22,342 nucleotides of DNA. Origin: a virus. The stretch is from the IMG/VR virus record IMGVR_UViG_3300038701_001827, positions 1 to 22,342 of that record; one strand, written 5' to 3'. The notes below the pieces were generated by a model that did no database searches, had not been told where the DNA came from, and saw only the letters and a program-made list of their open reading frames with translations. Below, in pieces: positions 94 to 14,944 of the stretch; positions within the stretch are counted from its first letter, which is position 1; each line of letters begins with the position of its first letter. Position numbers and translations under genes: made by a program.

Positions 94-114
94 GTCTGCC
101 TCGTGGGAATGTGC

Positions 115-156
115 CACAGGGGGAAAGTCGGTTGGCTTGGTGACTTTCCCCCTGTG
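115..156 (-). terminator. 15-bp perfect hairpin after capsid genes
   Basis: The arms 115-129 (CACAGGGGGAAAGTC) and 142-156 (GACTTTCCCCCTGTG) are exact reverse complements around a 12-base loop. It sits between the stop of the decoration gene and the next late gene. There is no clear U-run after it on the minus strand, so it may be a partial terminator, an RNA processing site, or a 3'-end stabiliser that sets the ratio of capsid to downstream mRNA. Confidence 0.6.
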
Positions 157-166
157 ATTAGTTTGC

Positions 167-759: not shown

Positions 760-1752
760 TTACGTCGAAGCCGTCAGACCGTAGAGGTCTGCAGCCACGC
801 CAAGGCCCTTCTCGTTTTTCGGGCAAAGCGTGCCTTCACCGATCAGGACGAACTTCTTTGCATCGCCGGTCTTGGCAACGCCCTTGTCTTCCTTGATCTT
901 CCGGAACCACTTGAAGCCAAGATATTCCGTGTCGACAAAGAAGGCGTTGCGCGCGAGGCCCGCAGAACCGGCCATGACGCGGTTGGGGTGGATCATCACC
1001 TTGCCGAACGGGCCTTCGTAGACGTCGGCGGTTGCCACGATGCTGTTGCCCTTGCCCGACTGCGTGGCATAGCGGAACGACGCAACGTTGCTGTCCGACA
1101 TGAAGGTGACGAAGACCGACTTGACGTAGGGCGACACGAAGACGTGCTTGAAGTTCGCGCCCGCCTCGTAGCCCTGTTTCATCACGTCGTCCAAGATGGT
1201 CTTGGTGAACGCGCGCTGGTCGCCGTTGGTCGGCGCGACCGTAAGGCCGGTGCCGCTGCTGAACCCGCCGTTTGCGCCGTTTGTGCCGCGCGAAACGTTG
1301 GTTTCGATCCATGTCGACAGGGATCCGAGTTCGCGGGTGGTGCCCGCAACAGAAGCGTTGGCATCGCAAATCGCGTATTCAACGTCCTTGCGAAGTTCGA
1401 CGCCCTTTTTCAGCTTCTGGTACTTGACCTGTTCGGCCTTGCCCGCGTTGTCCTCGGCATCCTGCGTGTTCGAGATGACGCCGGTTTTCCGCATGATCTG
1501 CGTGTAGTTGCCAACGCGCACGACCGGGCTGGTCGGGTCGAAGGTGTAGTCATCACCTTCAAGCTGGATGTTCGACGTCGGAGCCGCCAGATCGTCGGTT
1601 TCCCATTCCGGGTGCGTGGTCTTGCACGTCGACTTGGAAATCATGGAATAGATGGGGGTATCTTCCGGGGTGATGCGCGACACCACGTCCGAAAGCTCCT
1701 CCCGGTTGCCGACCGCGCTGGTCGACTGGAAGGTGTTTGACACAACTGCCAT
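760..1752 (-). CDS. Major capsid protein, SU10/DUF5309-like
   Basis: A 330-aa protein that should form the icosahedral head shell (HK97-type fold). The N-terminal part reads ELSDVVSRITPEDTPIYSMI, followed by THPEWETDDLAAP and a Q-x-E-G-D-D-Y-T-F segment. This ELxDVV...PEDTP...EWxTDxLA pattern is the signature of the DUF5309 family that includes the SU10 major capsid protein. The C-terminal half contains VFVSPYVKSVF and the GPFGKVMIHPNR stretch typical of the family's A-domain. The length fits the family. AAGGAAA precedes the ATG. It follows the scaffold gene and precedes the decoration gene, the standard head-module order. No protease gene is present, which agrees with a separate, non-cleaved scaffold. 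Confidence 0.88.
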   Translation of the reverse strand: MAVVSNTFQSTSAVGNREELSDVVSRITPEDTPIYSMISKSTCKTTHPEWETDDLAAPTSNIQLEGDDYTFDPTSPVVRVGNYTQIMRKTGVISNTQDAEDNAGKAEQVKYQKLKKGVELRKDVEYAICDANASVAGTTRELGSLSTWIETNVSRGTNGANGGFSSGTGLTVAPTNGDQRAFTKTILDDVMKQGYEAGANFKHVFVSPYVKSVFVTFMSDSNVASFRYATQSGKGNSIVATADVYEGPFGKVMIHPNRVMAGSAGLARNAFFVDTEYLGFKWFRKIKEDKGVAKTGDAKKFVLIGEGTLCPKNEKGLGVAADLYGLTAST

Positions 1753-3052: not shown

Positions 3053-3192
3053 GGCCGCCGCGCCTGCGGCTGAACCTCGTACGTCACGCCGGTTGGCGTG
3101 GTGTACATGGGCCGCCCGCTTTCGGACTTGTACCGCCAATCCTGTTTCGCCCCCGCACCGCCGATGGGGAGCGAAAAGAAATTCAGGTCCAT
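3049..3192 (-). CDS. Small phage protein, 47 aa
   Basis: ATG at 3192 overlaps the portal stop codon (TAATG), giving a 47-aa product that begins MDLNFFSLPIGGAGAKQDWR and ends VTYEVQPQARRP. The core DWRYKSESGRPMYTTPTGVTYEV resembles short beta-hairpin proteins, but I do not recognise a named family. The tight overlap with the portal gene and the following ATGA overlap support it as a translated gene in the head operon. It is below the usual length cutoff of gene callers. Confidence 0.55.
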   Translation of the reverse strand: MDLNFFSLPIGGAGAKQDWRYKSESGRPMYTTPTGVTYEVQPQARRP

Positions 3193-5330
3193 TACTGCAC
3201 AGCCCCGTCAGACTGGTTTTCCGTGCGCATCTGGTCGGCCTGATAGCGCATGATTTCGTCCTGTCGGCGCTGGTCCATTTCCTCGCGCCTCAACTGCAAT
3301 TCCATCTGGAACTTCTCGCGCTCCCACTGCAGGTTTTGCGCCTGCAGCGCCGCTGCCGACTGCAATTCCTCACGCTGGCGGATGCTTTCAGCCTCGATTT
3401 CCTTCTGACGAACAACAAGGTCCGCCTCCATCTGCGCCTTTTCCTTGGCCTGCGATGCCTGCATTTTGGCCTGCTCAAGCTGCATCTTGCCCTGCATGTC
3501 GGCCTGCTTCAGCGCCATTTCGGCCTTGGCCTTTTCCATCTCTGGATTGGGCTGGGTCTTGGCCTCTGCCATCCGCTGCTGGATTTCCTGCGGGTCAGGC
3601 TCGGAGAAGAACAGCGACGGCGTTTTCAGGCCCGCGCTTTCGACCAGCTTGGCCAGCGAATTGTATAGCTGGTCGGGTTTGACAAACGGGTTGTCCGAGC
3701 CAAAGGCGGCGATCAGCTTTTCTTGCAGCGCCAAGACCTGATGCATCACCATCATGTCGCGCTCGCGGGTTCCCGCGCCAAGGCCCACGTTTACGGTCGC
3801 GTCCATGTCGGCGTTCCAGTGGCGCGGGTCGAACTCTACCCACTCATCCCGCAGCCGCACGGTGCGCGGCTTGTCCTGGTGGCGGATCGTCATACGCAGA
3901 AGGCCCCGGAACATCCGCCGCATTCCCTCGGCAAGGTTTCGGACCATCATTTCGGTCTGCCCGATGCCCGCCTGTTCGATCATGGCCGAGGCCTTGGCCG
4001 TCATGTTCTGCAGCGCGTCCGGAGCAAGCCCGCTGCTGGCGTCGGTGATGCCGGTCCGATCCTCTGCCTCCCGGTCGAGACTTTCCATCAGCGCGAGGCT
4101 GTGGTTGGCAACGAAGGGGACCGGGTTGAACTGGACCACCGTGCGCGCGTCCATGCCGTCTTTAAGCAGAACAGCCTGCCCGAACTGCGGGTTCATGATT
4201 GCGTCGGGGTTCTGAACCGCCTTGATGTTGACGAACATCGGCGTGTTGTTCTGCCAGTAGATGTTATCCAGCGTCTGCCGCAGGAGCGCTGTCTTGGCCC
4301 GCTGCAGGTCTGCCAGGTCGTCGGCAAGGCTCACACCCTCCCACTGGTGCGGCTGGAACATCGCCGTCAGGTCCGCGAATTGAACCTCGTCAACCTCTTC
4401 GTCGACCAGCTTGTTGTGTTCGTTCAGCGCGCCCGCAAAGCACATGCGCCGCAACTCCGCGATGCCGTCGCCGTCCATGTCGACGCGCACGAACACCTCG
4501 TAATAGTCGATAGGATCGTTGGCCGGGTCCGCTTCGTCGGTGTCGTCCTGCGCGCTGTCTCCGCGCCGGGTGTCGCGTTCTTCGTCGTCCTCATCCGCCA
4601 GCGCCAGACCCATGACCAACTCACGGTCATAGCCCATTGCGATCAGGTCCGACCGGCGCAATTCCATGCGCTCACCCGTCAACAGGCTGTCGTCCAGCGT
4701 CACCGCGTCGGGATGGATCAGGAAGCGTTCACGCGGAACGGCTGCAATCCGATATTTCTTGTCCGTGTAGGCGCGCTTGATCTTGGCGTCATAGGTCGGC
4801 AGATCAATCACGCCCTCCGGCGTCTCGACCTGCTCAACGGCCTCGGTCACGTCGACGACCTCAACGCCGTCCTCGGACGTCAGCGCGCTCAACTCCTGCT
4901 CTGTCAGGCCGCTGTGGCGCGAGAACTTGACCGCCTGCCGCTCGTCATACCACCAGCGCAGAATGCCGTTCTTGAGCAACAGCGCGTCGTGTATGGCGTC
5001 GATGCAGGCCTTGCGCCCGTTGGCCTCGGGGAACACGACGAAGTTGATGAAGTCTGACGCCTGCTGCGCGCCTTCCTCGTCCCCCTCGGAAACGGGCTGA
5101 TATTCCACAACCTCATCCGACCCCAGGATGGTTCGGACGATTGACGGCAGCGCCTTCTTGATGTGCGACCGCACGTCCTTCGTGGTCATCGAAGAACGCC
5201 CCTTGTCGGGCGGCAGATCGCGCATCACGCCGTTGTAATAATCGGTCGCGTCGATGCGGTCCTGCGCCGTGTCGTCGGCGTGCTTTTCGGCCTCGCGGAT
5301 CATGTCCGCGACCGTGGCGATTGAGGTCAA
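3192..5330 (-). CDS. Portal protein (P22/podovirus type)
   Basis: A 712-aa protein expected to form the dodecameric ring at one head vertex through which DNA enters and leaves. The N-terminus has ATDYYNGVMRDLP and RSHIKKALPSIVRTILGSDEVVEY, typical of the large podovirus portal family. Around residue 360 to 380 comes DLQRAKTALLRQTLDNIYWQNNTP, and near 430-445 DRTGITDASSGLAPDALQN, both conserved portal blocks. Residues from about 590 to the end form a long coiled coil rich in K, A, M, Q and E, like the barrel helices of P22 gp1. The ATG overlaps the terminase stop by ATGA, and the stop overlaps the next ATG, so the genes are translationally coupled. Confidence 0.92.
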   Translation of the reverse strand: MTSIATVADMIREAEKHADDTAQDRIDATDYYNGVMRDLPPDKGRSSMTTKDVRSHIKKALPSIVRTILGSDEVVEYQPVSEGDEEGAQQASDFINFVVFPEANGRKACIDAIHDALLLKNGILRWWYDERQAVKFSRHSGLTEQELSALTSEDGVEVVDVTEAVEQVETPEGVIDLPTYDAKIKRAYTDKKYRIAAVPRERFLIHPDAVTLDDSLLTGERMELRRSDLIAMGYDRELVMGLALADEDDEERDTRRGDSAQDDTDEADPANDPIDYYEVFVRVDMDGDGIAELRRMCFAGALNEHNKLVDEEVDEVQFADLTAMFQPHQWEGVSLADDLADLQRAKTALLRQTLDNIYWQNNTPMFVNIKAVQNPDAIMNPQFGQAVLLKDGMDARTVVQFNPVPFVANHSLALMESLDREAEDRTGITDASSGLAPDALQNMTAKASAMIEQAGIGQTEMMVRNLAEGMRRMFRGLLRMTIRHQDKPRTVRLRDEWVEFDPRHWNADMDATVNVGLGAGTRERDMMVMHQVLALQEKLIAAFGSDNPFVKPDQLYNSLAKLVESAGLKTPSLFFSEPDPQEIQQRMAEAKTQPNPEMEKAKAEMALKQADMQGKMQLEQAKMQASQAKEKAQMEADLVVRQKEIEAESIRQREELQSAAALQAQNLQWEREKFQMELQLRREEMDQRRQDEIMRYQADQMRTENQSDGAVQ

Positions 5331-6613
5331 GCGACACTCCTTGGCGTGAACTCCGGTAGCGGCGTTTCATCGGGGGCCTTGTAGACCACCGCGCCCAATC
5401 CGAAGGCATCCGCCCCGTGCGACGACCAGTCATGCTCAGGTCCAAGCCCGATGCCCCGGTCTTCGTCGCGTTTCTCGTGATACCAGCCGATAGCATCCAT
5501 GCCAGCGGCGGTCTTTTCGTCAAACCACATCAGCGGGAACAACCGCCGGGCCGCCTCGACCCGCTTCATGGCAGCGCCCTTGCCCTGGTTCGGAACAACC
5601 TGCACCTCGAACCCCGCGCTTCGCAGGTATGAGACATATGAGACGTCATGCACCCTGTCGTTCGTGTCGCCGTCATGCGGCAGCACTTGCAGCGCCTTGC
5701 CGTAGCCGTTGGACCGCAACCACTCAACATGCGTAGAGAGCGGCTGGCCAACGGCCTCGTAGTAGTCCAGCCAGCGAATTTCACGGCCAACGAATTGAGC
5801 AATCCAGATTGCACAGGCGTCGGCCTTTGCCCCGGTGCCGCCAATGTCCCAGATTGCCCGCGTGGTCATGAGCGGATCTGGCGCGACCTTGCCGACCCGG
5901 CCTTGCTTGCGGGCCTCTGACAGGTGCTGCGCGTAGTATGCGCCCTCGACCACCGTGACGAACTCACCTTCCCAGATATGGGCGTAGTGGTCCGGGCGGT
6001 TCTTCATGTCGTTCTGACGCTCTTGCTCCAGCACAGCCGGAAACCAAGGGTTGTCGCGCCAGTTCAGTTCGGTGATTTTCGCGCCCTCTGGCGGGTTTTC
6101 GCGAAACCGCTTGTGCGTTGCGCTTTGCTTGCGCTCCGGGTTCCACGTCACCCAGATTTCAGAGCCTTCCTCGCGGATGGTGGGTATCAGCTTGCGCCAC
6201 GCCTCATCGCTGACAGGCTCGGCCTCGTCGACCCAGCAAAGAAGGATGCGGGCCTTGGACTTGATGCTGTCTAGATTGTGCCGCAGGCCGCTGAACGTGT
6301 ATTTGATCCGCCCGTCCTTGCTGCGAACGAACTTCTCGCCAATCTCGTAATATTCAGCCAGGAACGCCTCTGACCGGATGGCGGCCTTGATTTCCTCAAG
6401 TGAACTTTCGTCGAGACTGTTGAGGTGTTCACGGGCGCAGAGGATTTGCCCCTCCTTGCCTGACATGCCCCACTGGTAGCCCATGATGGCCGTCATCTTG
6501 GCAAAGGTGCGCGTCTTGCCCGAACCGCGCCCGCCGTAACTTCCCCTGTACCTTGCCGCCCCGTCGAAGATCGGGACCAGCTTTGGCGGCAGGTCAATCG
6601 TCGCTGTTGTCAC
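5327..6613 (-). CDS. terL: Terminase large subunit (PBSX/P22 type)
   Basis: A 428-aa packaging motor: ATP-driven DNA translocation into the prohead and endonucleolytic cutting. Walker A is GGRGSGKT at residues 27-34. Walker B is ILLCWVDE at 123-130 with E130 as the catalytic carboxylate. The coupling motif TWNP is at 156-159. The RNase H-like nuclease domain begins with RAIWDIGGTG (D256), has LPHDGD further on, and a C-terminal acidic site in SSHGADAFGLG. Length and motif order fit PBSX-family terminases. It overlaps the small-subunit gene by 20 bases and the portal gene by 4 bases, the normal packaging cassette. Confidence 0.93.
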   Translation of the reverse strand: MTTATIDLPPKLVPIFDGAARYRGSYGGRGSGKTRTFAKMTAIMGYQWGMSGKEGQILCAREHLNSLDESSLEEIKAAIRSEAFLAEYYEIGEKFVRSKDGRIKYTFSGLRHNLDSIKSKARILLCWVDEAEPVSDEAWRKLIPTIREEGSEIWVTWNPERKQSATHKRFRENPPEGAKITELNWRDNPWFPAVLEQERQNDMKNRPDHYAHIWEGEFVTVVEGAYYAQHLSEARKQGRVGKVAPDPLMTTRAIWDIGGTGAKADACAIWIAQFVGREIRWLDYYEAVGQPLSTHVEWLRSNGYGKALQVLPHDGDTNDRVHDVSYVSYLRSAGFEVQVVPNQGKGAAMKRVEAARRLFPLMWFDEKTAAGMDAIGWYHEKRDEDRGIGLGPEHDWSSHGADAFGLGAVVYKAPDETPLPEFTPRSVA

Positions 6614-6935
6614 GCGCCGCCCTTAGAACGACTTCTGTCGGCATGGCGATCTTGTCGCCGCCGCTCGTGTGATCGATGGATTGCGCCGGGGTGCCGTGCG
6701 CGCGGTCTTCGCTGTCCTTGAACAGTTTCAGCGTGGCCGCGTCGATGAATTGCAGCGGATCTTCCCCGGCTTCAAGCTTTTCCTTGATATTGGAAAGCAT
6801 CCTGTCACGGATGAAAGCCGCGTTTTCCGCTGCCCTGTATTCTGCCTCGCGTTGCGCTGACGTTTTCCCGCCGTTCGGCTTGTTGCCGTTTTCCGCGCCA
6901 AATCGCGTCTCTGGTGATGGGTTTGGGTTTGCCAT
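6594..6935 (-). CDS. terS: Probable terminase small subunit
   Basis: A 113-aa protein whose N-terminus MANPNPSPETRFGAENGNKP is followed by NGGKTSAQREAEYRAAENAA, a basic-helical opening seen in many small packaging proteins encoded just before terL. The middle (about 40-80) is helical and could oligomerise. The C-terminus is acidic. It overlaps terL by 20 bases and is the first gene behind a candidate late promoter. The role, recognising the packaging site and handing DNA to TerL, is inferred from position and overall type. No classical HTH is obvious. No good ribosome site lies directly before the ATG; an AGGAGG lies about 31 bases further upstream. Confidence 0.7.
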   Translation of the reverse strand: MANPNPSPETRFGAENGNKPNGGKTSAQREAEYRAAENAAFIRDRMLSNIKEKLEAGEDPLQFIDAATLKLFKDSEDRAHGTPAQSIDHTSGGDKIAMPTEVVLRAARDNSDD

Positions 6936-7161
6936 GCGCTTGGTCGGGTCCGTTGCCGGGTGTCCGCCTCCTGCTGATGTTGCTGCCCGACATGCGAAAG
7001 CACCGGCCCTGCAATCGGATTTCTCCGGGGTCGGCGCTCAGGCGACGTGCCCGCAACTCGGTTTGGGCTGGTCGGTGCCCTAGATGTAGCACAGGGCGGG
7101 GCGTGTGGCAACTAGGCGGGTATGTTGCGTACCATCGCAGCGCGGCATCCGGTTGCGCCCA
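6936..7161. other. Gap upstream of terS, leader and promoter region
   Basis: No credible gene is seen on either strand; the overlapping reading frames have poor composition. It contains the candidate late promoter (7083-7111) and about 140 bases of leader before terS. The packaging (pac/cos) site could lie here, as it often does near terS, but no sequence mark identifies it. Confidence 0.5.
7083..7111 (-). promoter_or_regulatory. Candidate late promoter
   Basis: Reading on the minus strand, TTGCCA (7111-7106), a 17-base spacer and TACATC (7088-7083) match a sigma-70-type promoter with ideal spacing. Transcription would start near 7076 and run into terS. It is the only good promoter seen between the NusG-like gene and the packaging genes. 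Confidence 0.45.
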
Positions 7162-7329
7162 TTATCTCCAGACCCCCGACACGTGATCACTGTAAGATCC
7201 GAACGTGCGCCAAAGTAATGCGGAGAAGACAAGAAACACCTCATACCAGGTCACACCTTCGCCTGTCGCCCCAATTCCTGCGCCGACTACCAGCGCCAAG
7301 CATAGAGATAGAATTCTGCTGACTGTCAT
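7162..7329 (-). CDS. Small membrane protein, 55 aa
   Basis: ATG at 7329 behind a strong GGAGG site. The 55-aa product begins MTVSRILSLCLALVVGAGIG, a hydrophobic segment (about 5-22), then GEGVTWYEVFLVFSALLWRT, a second hydrophobic segment (about 29-41), and ends SYSDHVSGVWR. It looks like a two-span inner-membrane protein or one span plus an amphipathic helix. It lies between the early operon and the late promoter. A holin-like role is possible for such a size and build, but no endolysin is adjacent, so this is speculative. Confidence 0.65.
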   Translation of the reverse strand: MTVSRILSLCLALVVGAGIGATGEGVTWYEVFLVFSALLWRTFGSYSDHVSGVWR

Positions 7330-7364
7330 CCCCAATCCTCCGGCATTCCGTGCAGGTCGATCAT
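7326..7364 (-). CDS. 12-codon leader ORF coupled to membrane gene
   Basis: ATG at 7364 encodes MIDLHGMPEDWG and stops as ATGA on the start of the 55-aa membrane protein. The ribosome site of the membrane gene (GGAGG) is inside it. It is probably a coupling device rather than a functional peptide. Confidence 0.25.
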   Translation of the reverse strand: MIDLHGMPEDWG

Positions 7365-7374
7365 AATCACATCA

Positions 7375-7938
7375 TCACTCCGCCGCCATCTTTTCCGTGT
7401 TCCCCGATCCGCTCTTGCCCTTGAACCCCTCGGGCGTCTCCCAATGGATTACGTCGGCAATGACCTCGACCACGTTCACGGCTAGGGAAACATCGTCGCC
7501 CAGCAGCACTAGCGCGCGGTCGCCGGGATGCACGCGCAGGGCCTCGCGGCGTTCGGCCTCCAATTCCTCGGCAACGGTCGGCATCCCGAGAAACGTCCGC
7601 ACGTCGTCCTCTGACGCGATATAGGGGACCGGCCCCCAATCGGACGGCTTGGTAACGACGCCGGTAATGACCCGCTGTCGCCGCAGTTCGGCCCATGCCG
7701 GGGCGTGGCGGAATTTGGCGAAGAGATACCCGGCAACCTGCGGCACGTCTGCGCGCTGTGTGCGGCCATGTGCGTCCCGCCAGATGCGTTCGCGGGTTGG
7801 GTAGGCCACATGCACGCCAGCGGTGTTCAGGCGGTCGCGTTTGGCGCTCTCCTGCCCGCTCATGACGCGCAGGATGTGCCATAGGGGTTCGTCCAGGCGC
7901 GCGCCGGTCAGGCGGGTGAGGATTGGCGTCTGTCTCAA
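7375..7938 (-). CDS. NusG/RfaH-like transcription elongation (antitermination) factor
   Basis: A 187-aa protein if started at TTG 7938, which overlaps the upstream stop as TTGA and follows a strong AAGGAGGGAGAG site; no ATG lies nearby. Residues 19-95 match the NusG N-terminal domain: LWHILRVMSGQESAKRDRL, then AGVHVAYPTRERIWRD, then PQVAGYLFAKF (66-76), then VITGVV (90-95). Around residues 135-147, RVHPGDRALVLLG resembles the start of a KOW domain. NusG proteins bind the RNA polymerase clamp and suppress pausing. The ribosomal-protein-like signature and length fit specialised NusG paralogues. As the last gene of the early operon, just before the late genes, it is a candidate late-gene antiterminator. 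Its substrate is inferred. Confidence 0.78.
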   Translation of the reverse strand: MRQTPILTRLTGARLDEPLWHILRVMSGQESAKRDRLNTAGVHVAYPTRERIWRDAHGRTQRADVPQVAGYLFAKFRHAPAWAELRRQRVITGVVTKPSDWGPVPYIASEDDVRTFLGMPTVAEELEAERREALRVHPGDRALVLLGDDVSLAVNVVEVIADVIHWETPEGFKGKSGSGNTEKMAAE

Positions 7939-8231
7939 CTCTCTCCCTCCTTGAGCGCGGCGCGGGCGCGCTTGCCATAGTCTTCGCTGTATACGTTCCA
8001 CGGGCTGACCCCTGGGTCGGCTGCAATCGAACCGTAGAAGGTCAACGCCCCCTCCAGCATCTTCACCCGCTCGCGCAGGCGGGCGATTTCGGCCTTGTGC
8101 AGGTCTTCGCGGATGTAGGGGATGACGGGTTCCGACGCATACTTAGGGTCTTCAAACGGCCCCCTTACATGCGGGCAGTCACCCGCTTCTGTATCCCCAT
8201 CAAGCCAAATCCGCTCCGGTGCTTCGCTCAT
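7935..8231 (-). CDS. Phage protein with ERIW...YIREDL pattern
   Basis: A 98-aa protein beginning MSEAPERIWLDGDTEAGDCP, with EPVIPYIREDLHKAEIARL in the middle and a C-terminal KRARAALKEGES tail. The segment from about 42 to 65 is a heptad-like helix. Proteins with this opening and the YIRxDL segment are common, uncharacterised early-region proteins in rhizobial and rhodobacterial phages. It is coupled at both ends: ATGA with the gene before it and TTGA with the NusG-like gene after it. Function is unknown. Confidence 0.75.
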   Translation of the reverse strand: MSEAPERIWLDGDTEAGDCPHVRGPFEDPKYASEPVIPYIREDLHKAEIARLRERVKMLEGALTFYGSIAADPGVSPWNVYSEDYGKRARAALKEGES

Positions 8232-14651: not shown

Positions 14652-14944
14652 GGGTCTAACTCCGGTGCTGTGCCCCCGAAAAGCCCCGGCGACCGAAGCC
14701 GCCGGGGAGTTGCGCGCAGGGGAACAGTGACGAGGAAAACCCCGCGCGGGGAGCAAAAGGTGCGGGCCAGAGGCAGGGGGGAGGATGCCCCCGGCCCGCT
14801 TACCGGCGCTGTCCCGACCGCCGGTATTCTGTGAGTGGTGGCGGGGAAAACGGCGCGCGCTTTCCCCGGTGCTGGCACAAATTCGGTCATTGAAATGTGA
14901 CGCGGGTGTGCCAAGCTTTGGGATAGGCAAGAAACCTCCGGGCA
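14652..14944 (-). other. Structured leader between cro-like gene and secreted protein gene
   Basis: About 290 bases with no clearly coding frame but three GC-rich inverted repeats on the minus-strand transcript: 14762-14799 (outer arms GCGGGCC/GGCCCGC with inner G/C runs), the palindrome CCCCGCGCGGGG at 14740-14751 followed by TTTT, and a terminator-like UUCG hairpin at 14684-14707. One frame (14639-14890, minus) reads GKARAVFPATTHR and RRLRSPGLFGG, a pattern I have seen in phage leader regions of other bacteria, so this may be a conserved RNA element or small overlapping gene. Confidence 0.5.
14678..14707 (-). terminator. UUCG-capped intrinsic terminator in early leader
   Basis: On the minus strand the arms CCCCGGCG and CGCCGGGG, with G-U and C-G pairs inside, close a UUCG tetraloop, and CTTTTC follows. 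This 10-bp stem plus short U-run lies about 30 bases before ATG 14651, so leftward early transcription must pass it. It may act as an attenuator overcome by antitermination or by translation. Confidence 0.65.

Follow-up and report, generated by a model that had tools for sequence, protein, structure and literature searches.

A phage-borne NusG paralogue as a probable RfaH-like late switch in the lambda Q position of a temperate podophage

Introduction

What switches on the late genes of a temperate phage that carries a NusG-like gene where lambda carries Q? To our knowledge, a good understanding of how phages control their late genes exists only for those of the Q type and for those that encode a sigma factor or polymerase of their own. 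The window analyzed here, a 22,342-nt stretch of viral DNA (positions 1 to 22,342 of IMG/VR record IMGVR_UViG_3300038701_001827), is part of a temperate podophage with an SU10-type portal and capsid and with integrase, Erf, NinB and Gam-like proteins. An initial annotation of its sequence had proposed that the gene preceding the packaging genes encodes a NusG/RfaH-like factor that licenses late transcription. From the computational follow-up reported here, we consider it likely that a phage-borne, specialized NusG paralogue acts as an RfaH-like late switch in the lambda Q position.

Results

An NGN-domain gene ends the early operon

The leftward early operon extends from ~15.2 kb to 7.4 kb, its genes overlap, and the NGN-domain gene stands at its end. 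Next come a 57-aa ORF, a gap, and the genes for TerS, TerL, portal, scaffold and capsid (Table 1), and the initial annotation was therefore correct in describing the final gene of a leftward early operon with packaging genes beyond it. The window TerL is 66–69% identical to those of phages of Sulfitobacter, Paracoccus and a Microcystis culture. The 57-aa ORF has no Pfam match, the putative TerS has no family match, and none of the early-operon proteins that were scanned with PHROGs or Pfam matched a lambda-type Q family. The NGN-domain gene has an uninterrupted reading frame that begins with a TTG at 7938, overlapping the stop codon of the upstream gene (TTGA), and the ORF at 7938-7375 (minus strand) is a real gene.

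Table 1 Coordinates of features in the window.
Feature	Position	Strand	Basis and remarks
Hairpin, 16-bp stem, 12-nt loop, no U tract	114..157	minus	folding z -3.2 (121-nt stretch); inside late operon
Major capsid protein (SU10 type)	760..1752	minus	Pfam 4.4e-84
Portal protein (SU10 type)	3192..5330	minus	Pfam 2.1e-199
Large terminase subunit (TerL)	5327..6613	minus	Pfam Terminase_3 9.6e-24; 69% identical to Sulfitobacter phage pCB2047-A
Probable small terminase subunit (TerS)	6594..6935	minus	position before TerL; similarity to pre-TerL ORF of contig L003
Candidate late promoter, TTGCCA-N17-TACATC, TG before -10	7083..7111	minus	loose sigma-70 pattern
Putative small ORF, 57 aa, hydrophobic N-terminal stretch	7162..7335	minus	between NGN gene and terminase genes
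NGN-domain (NusG/RfaH-like) gene	7375..7938	minus	187 aa, TTG start; ends leftward early operon
Shine-Dalgarno AAGGAGG	7946..7952	minus	from sequence; 7 nt 5' of NGN-gene TTG start
GC-rich hairpin, 10-bp stem then CUUUU	14684..14707	minus	folding z -3.6 (121-nt stretch); near early-operon start

The product carries an NGN domain

The encoded protein had been assigned a NusG-type NGN domain plus a KOW-like segment, with HMM searches for both and a structure prediction put forward as checks. Residues 20-105 match Pfam NusG (PF02357) significantly (E 1.1e-8; 35.9 bits against a curated cut-off of 22.2), and residues 19-160 match positions 14-150 of the 179 in phrog_6386, "transcription antiterminator" (E 4e-10); this part of the assignment is borne out. 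Core residues W20, P47, Y71 and F73 are common to the relatives. The KOW-like segment was not confirmed: Pfam KOW gave no match up to E 10, and residues 121-187 could not be modelled confidently from 18 phage sequences. The NGN domain alone is demonstrated, and a KOW domain is not supported in this protein. Weak KOW matches were seen in relatives from contigs L114 (0.001) and L029 (0.068). In an NCBIfam scan to E 10, the only entry returned was UpxY (1.6e-7; 31.5 bits, with the cut-off at 100), and the RfaH model did not match.

A profile of nine phage sequences, the window's included, finds solved NusG (1.7e-9) and RfaH (2.4e-9) structures. The structure model built from the 18 phage sequences has a mean pLDDT of 61.5, with the core mostly at 65-95; a single-sequence prediction reached a pLDDT of 35. 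The strand and helix order in the model is that of an NGN domain, and the model superimposes on polymerase-bound (recruited) RfaH (8pen_P) with Z 11.0 and 2.2 A over 99 residues, and on NusG with Z 9.8. The structural check thus agrees with the domain match and, on this model, the window protein carries the NGN fold of the NusG/Spt5 superfamily.

In a phylogenetic tree, the phage NGN proteins are placed apart from housekeeping NusG and among specialized RfaH-like paralogues, and host genomes containing these prophages also have a housekeeping nusG of their own. The window protein forms a very long branch with a weak link (86/80) to the GGTGATTTG lineage described below, a grouping on which we advise no reliance. 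Direct relatives were not found in phages by tblastn, in viral contigs or in genome contigs, and a search of 385 alphaproteobacterial genomes returned a single weak match with two stops. For genome searches we used phrog_6386 and a home-made profile, because a PF02357 search had missed the window gene itself; the negatives of that search were set aside for the same reason.

Separately, about one fifth of the sampled alphaproteobacterial genomes (L142-L171) have a relative 35-46% identical to the L029 phage protein, often with a second, weaker NusG match besides. By sequence, these relatives appear to form a widespread RfaH-like paralogue group.

The same gene position recurs in other phages

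TerL is encoded downstream of the NGN gene, in the same orientation, in all 29 records that show both genes. Similarity to NGN proteins or to the element described below, rather than to TerL, led to 25 of these records, and the count includes the near-identical pairs L096/L097, L100/L101 and L102/L131. These records span several phage lineages and at least four kinds of TerL. A pre-terminase NGN gene is found in contigs L029 and L075 and further viral contigs, in Bradyrhizobium phage ppBjS10J-1, Labrenzia phage LagS-V1, Rhizobium phages RHph_N28_2 and RHph_TM3_3_3, and Sinorhizobium phage phiLM21, and is seen in Microcystis phage yong2 once the two ends of the record are joined. At the equivalent position, Sulfitobacter phage pCB2047-A encodes a protein that matches phrog_6386 (1.2e-7) and is unannotated. 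The arrangement is recurrent and not universal, since no NGN gene was detected in many of the window's close TerL relatives. A late switch of this type had initially been called unusual, which is half right: the layout recurs across phages, and phiLM21-like phages are already annotated with an antiterminator.

The pCB2047-A gene (SUAG_00017; L081:18235-18762) is annotated as hypothetical; its product matches the family of NusG-like antiterminators and includes the KOW-like sequence GQALRVISGPF. NusG matches in Microcystis phage MaAM05 and in Salmonella records were excluded, as these look like bacterial contigs. The MaAM05 record (MW495066.1, L116), deposited as a phage, contains in the stretch inspected secE, nusG, rplK and rplA together with metabolic genes.

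Recurrence also bears on whether the window gene has any function in late expression. A degenerate or passenger gene could be expected to look as divergent as this one, with its long branch and undetectable KOW domain, and phage NGN genes can indeed lie elsewhere, the counter-example being the NusG-like gene of the T4-like cyanophage S-N03. However, the intact frame, the good ribosome site, the retained core residues (W20, P47, Y71 and F73) and the recurrent position all point the other way, and we regard a passenger gene as very unlikely.

A conserved element follows the NGN gene in related lineages

In a sister lineage, the L075 type (Mesorhizobium and Rhizobium phages), a promoter (CTTG..., ~17 bp, TATATT) lies 3' of the NGN gene. 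An invariant GGTGATTTG occurs ~7 nt past this promoter, at about +1, and is followed by a conserved leader of ~100 nt; promoter, GGTGATTTG and leader together occupy L075:3200-3330, L102:6547-6670 and L107:1872-2000, with counterparts in relatives. Nucleotide identities of leader and NGN gene are 0.84 and 0.66 for L075-L107 and 0.89 and 0.66 for L102-L107, so that conservation is higher in the leader than in the gene, despite different terminases downstream. RNAalifold finds almost no RNA structure in the leader, so the signal looks like one of sequence or DNA.

A search with TATATTTTCNNNAGGTGATTTG, using DNA alone, returned 14 viral and 4 genome stretches, two of which (L128 and L133) are not leaders. 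Upstream sequence is readable for 14 of the 16 leaders, and every one of these 14 is preceded by an NGN gene in the same orientation; the other two have no upstream sequence in view. Five of the loci (L119, L127, L130, L131 and L132), two of them in Mesorhizobium genomes, were found by the DNA element after having been missed at the protein level. Outside the lineage, the leader model finds exactly one further site in 344 kb, at the NGN-gene end of RHph_N28_2 (E 0.0073), whose NGN protein is ~28% identical. RHph_TM3_3_3 has GTGATTTG at the corresponding NGN-gene end, and in phiLM21 it lies at the gp34 stop codon; each of the two stretches has a single copy.

Phages of the ppBjS10J-1 type, a second NGN lineage, conserve another element instead, which is centred on TTTCACCCGCCGGG and located 185-260 bp after the NGN gene. 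This noncoding element reads CGGCCGGT...TTTCACCCGCCGGGTGGCTTGTGTCC and lies at about 9760-9805 in L091, with equivalents in L092-L095. A AATCCATA motif common to two lineages was rejected, as it occurs at chance level in the window. The pairings of NGN genes with such elements are the best evidence that phage NGN proteins act where the late transcript begins, evidence that comes from relatives and not from the window.

These elements also speak to the idea that the NGN protein takes over the host more broadly, competing with host NusG for RNA polymerase or lifting silencing by Rho on a global scale, rather than serving a specific late target. The fold match implies a polymerase-binding NGN surface common to NusG, and without a KOW domain Rho recruitment could be blocked. 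The fixed position before the late genes and the cis element of the sister lineage point instead to a specific target, and make a general host takeover unlikely.

Candidate signals in the window

The window itself was searched for comparable signals, and no copy of the GGTGATTTG element was found in it. GTGATTTG is absent from the gap, and the leader model (R1) does not rise above background in 6500-8000. Four copies of GTGATTTG occur in the window (621, 2962, 9492 and 12067), a number reached in 1 of 100 shuffles. All are on the plus strand, antisense within minus-strand genes and without promoters; they were judged coincidental, probably reflecting codons. For the ops element, only two one-mismatch matches are present in the window, at chance level and with none in the late region.

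The putative promoter at 7111-7083 is the sole minus-strand match of the loose sigma-70 pattern in the whole window. About 1.0 match is expected by chance on the whole strand and 67 of 2000 gap shuffles (3%) contain one, and for this reason the site is a candidate only, and a weak one, for the late promoter. The hairpins of the gap do not stand out from shuffled sequence (z -0.5 and -1.4).

Hairpins near 14684 and 115 had been suggested initially as possible targets past which late transcription is licensed. Both exist, and neither fits that role well. The hairpin at 14707-14684, a probable intrinsic terminator, precedes the NGN gene in the early operon and therefore cannot be a late-operon target. 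The one at 157-114 has no U tract and does not look like an intrinsic terminator. It sits between two late genes and is significant against shuffles.

A strong hairpin with a U run inside the early operon, and the ability of NusG paralogues to act on operons containing them, would suit an NGN protein that acts on the early operon or on itself, allowing passage through the terminator at 14707-14684 in the manner of lambda N, with its place before terS incidental. However, the gene is last in that operon, so that its own expression would require its product; the pre-TerL position recurs over phages with different early regions; and the cis element of the sister lineage comes after the NGN gene, not before it. 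We consider an early-operon function improbable.

Discussion

A layout repeated in unrelated phages, one lineage of which has a conserved signal at the start of the transcript, suggests that the NGN protein is probably a late-gene switch. The licensing of late transcription by a NusG/RfaH paralogue in the Q position is supported indirectly. In the proposed mechanism, the NGN protein would be made last in the early operon. Host RNA polymerase would start from a promoter located between the NGN gene and terS and pick up the NGN protein shortly after leaving it, at a loading site within the initially transcribed bases. The NGN protein would then stay bound and keep the polymerase from pausing or terminating over the long late operon. 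By analogy with the NusG/RfaH family, we infer polymerase binding, recruitment at a GGTGATTTG-type site and antitermination by the NGN protein; use of the 7111-7083 promoter by the window phage is likewise our inference.

A broader reading is that temperate phages of alphaproteobacteria have repeatedly swapped Q for captured NGN proteins of RfaH-like kind, and that every such protein is paired with a loading element of its own in the initial transcript (GGTGATTTG in one case, the TTTCACCCGCCGGG-centred element in another). Together they would form a general late-switch class of multiple origins; we give this about an even chance. If NusG paralogues do act as Q in many such phages, host elongation factors would have been captured several times for one switch. 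The pairs of NGN protein and GGTGATTTG would offer compact new systems for the loading of a NusG paralogue onto polymerase at a defined site. Neither NusG paralogues as a general replacement for Q nor the GGTGATTTG element is described in the literature searched, a search with most subscription papers outside it, and a recurrent replacement at the Q position together with a cis element appears to be undescribed.

Individual members of these families have been noted. The NGN proteins of phiLM21 and the Rhizobium phages are already annotated as NusG-like transcription antiterminators, every phiLM21-like prophage is reported to carry the antiterminator (PMC12429752), and rfaH-like genes have been noted on prophages (PMC7593976). 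Like the window gene, phiLM21 gp34 and the EVB88_001 and EVB37_001 genes of RHph_N28_2 and RHph_TM3_3_3 encode an NGN protein as the last early gene before the terminase genes; they differ in that sequence similarity to the window protein is weak and in having, at their NGN stop codon, the GTGATTTG that is absent at that place in the window.

Among bacterial systems, E. coli RfaH and its ops element resemble the window protein in fold (Z 11.0), in being a specialized NusG paralogue, and in the proposed recruitment in the early transcribed region. In contrast to RfaH, the window protein has no NCBIfam RfaH match and the window no ops element above chance, and its gene adjoins the presumed target within a phage. 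Encoding next to the target is shared with the UpxY/LoaP/TaA type of NusG paralogues, which are encoded beside the long operon they serve (PMC7819879). UpxY is also the best NCBIfam match of the window protein, although far below cut-off, and the proposed target in the window is a phage late operon.

The antiterminator GafZ of the Caulobacter gene transfer agent acts at the promoter of a packaging and structural gene cluster, is not NusG-like, and works with host NusG (PMC11150451). Both it and the window protein belong to alphaproteobacterial systems of late type, but only the window protein is itself NusG-like. Lambda Q and the Q families of other lambdoid phages have the same gene position and the same proposed job, and are unrelated to the window protein, which has an NGN domain.
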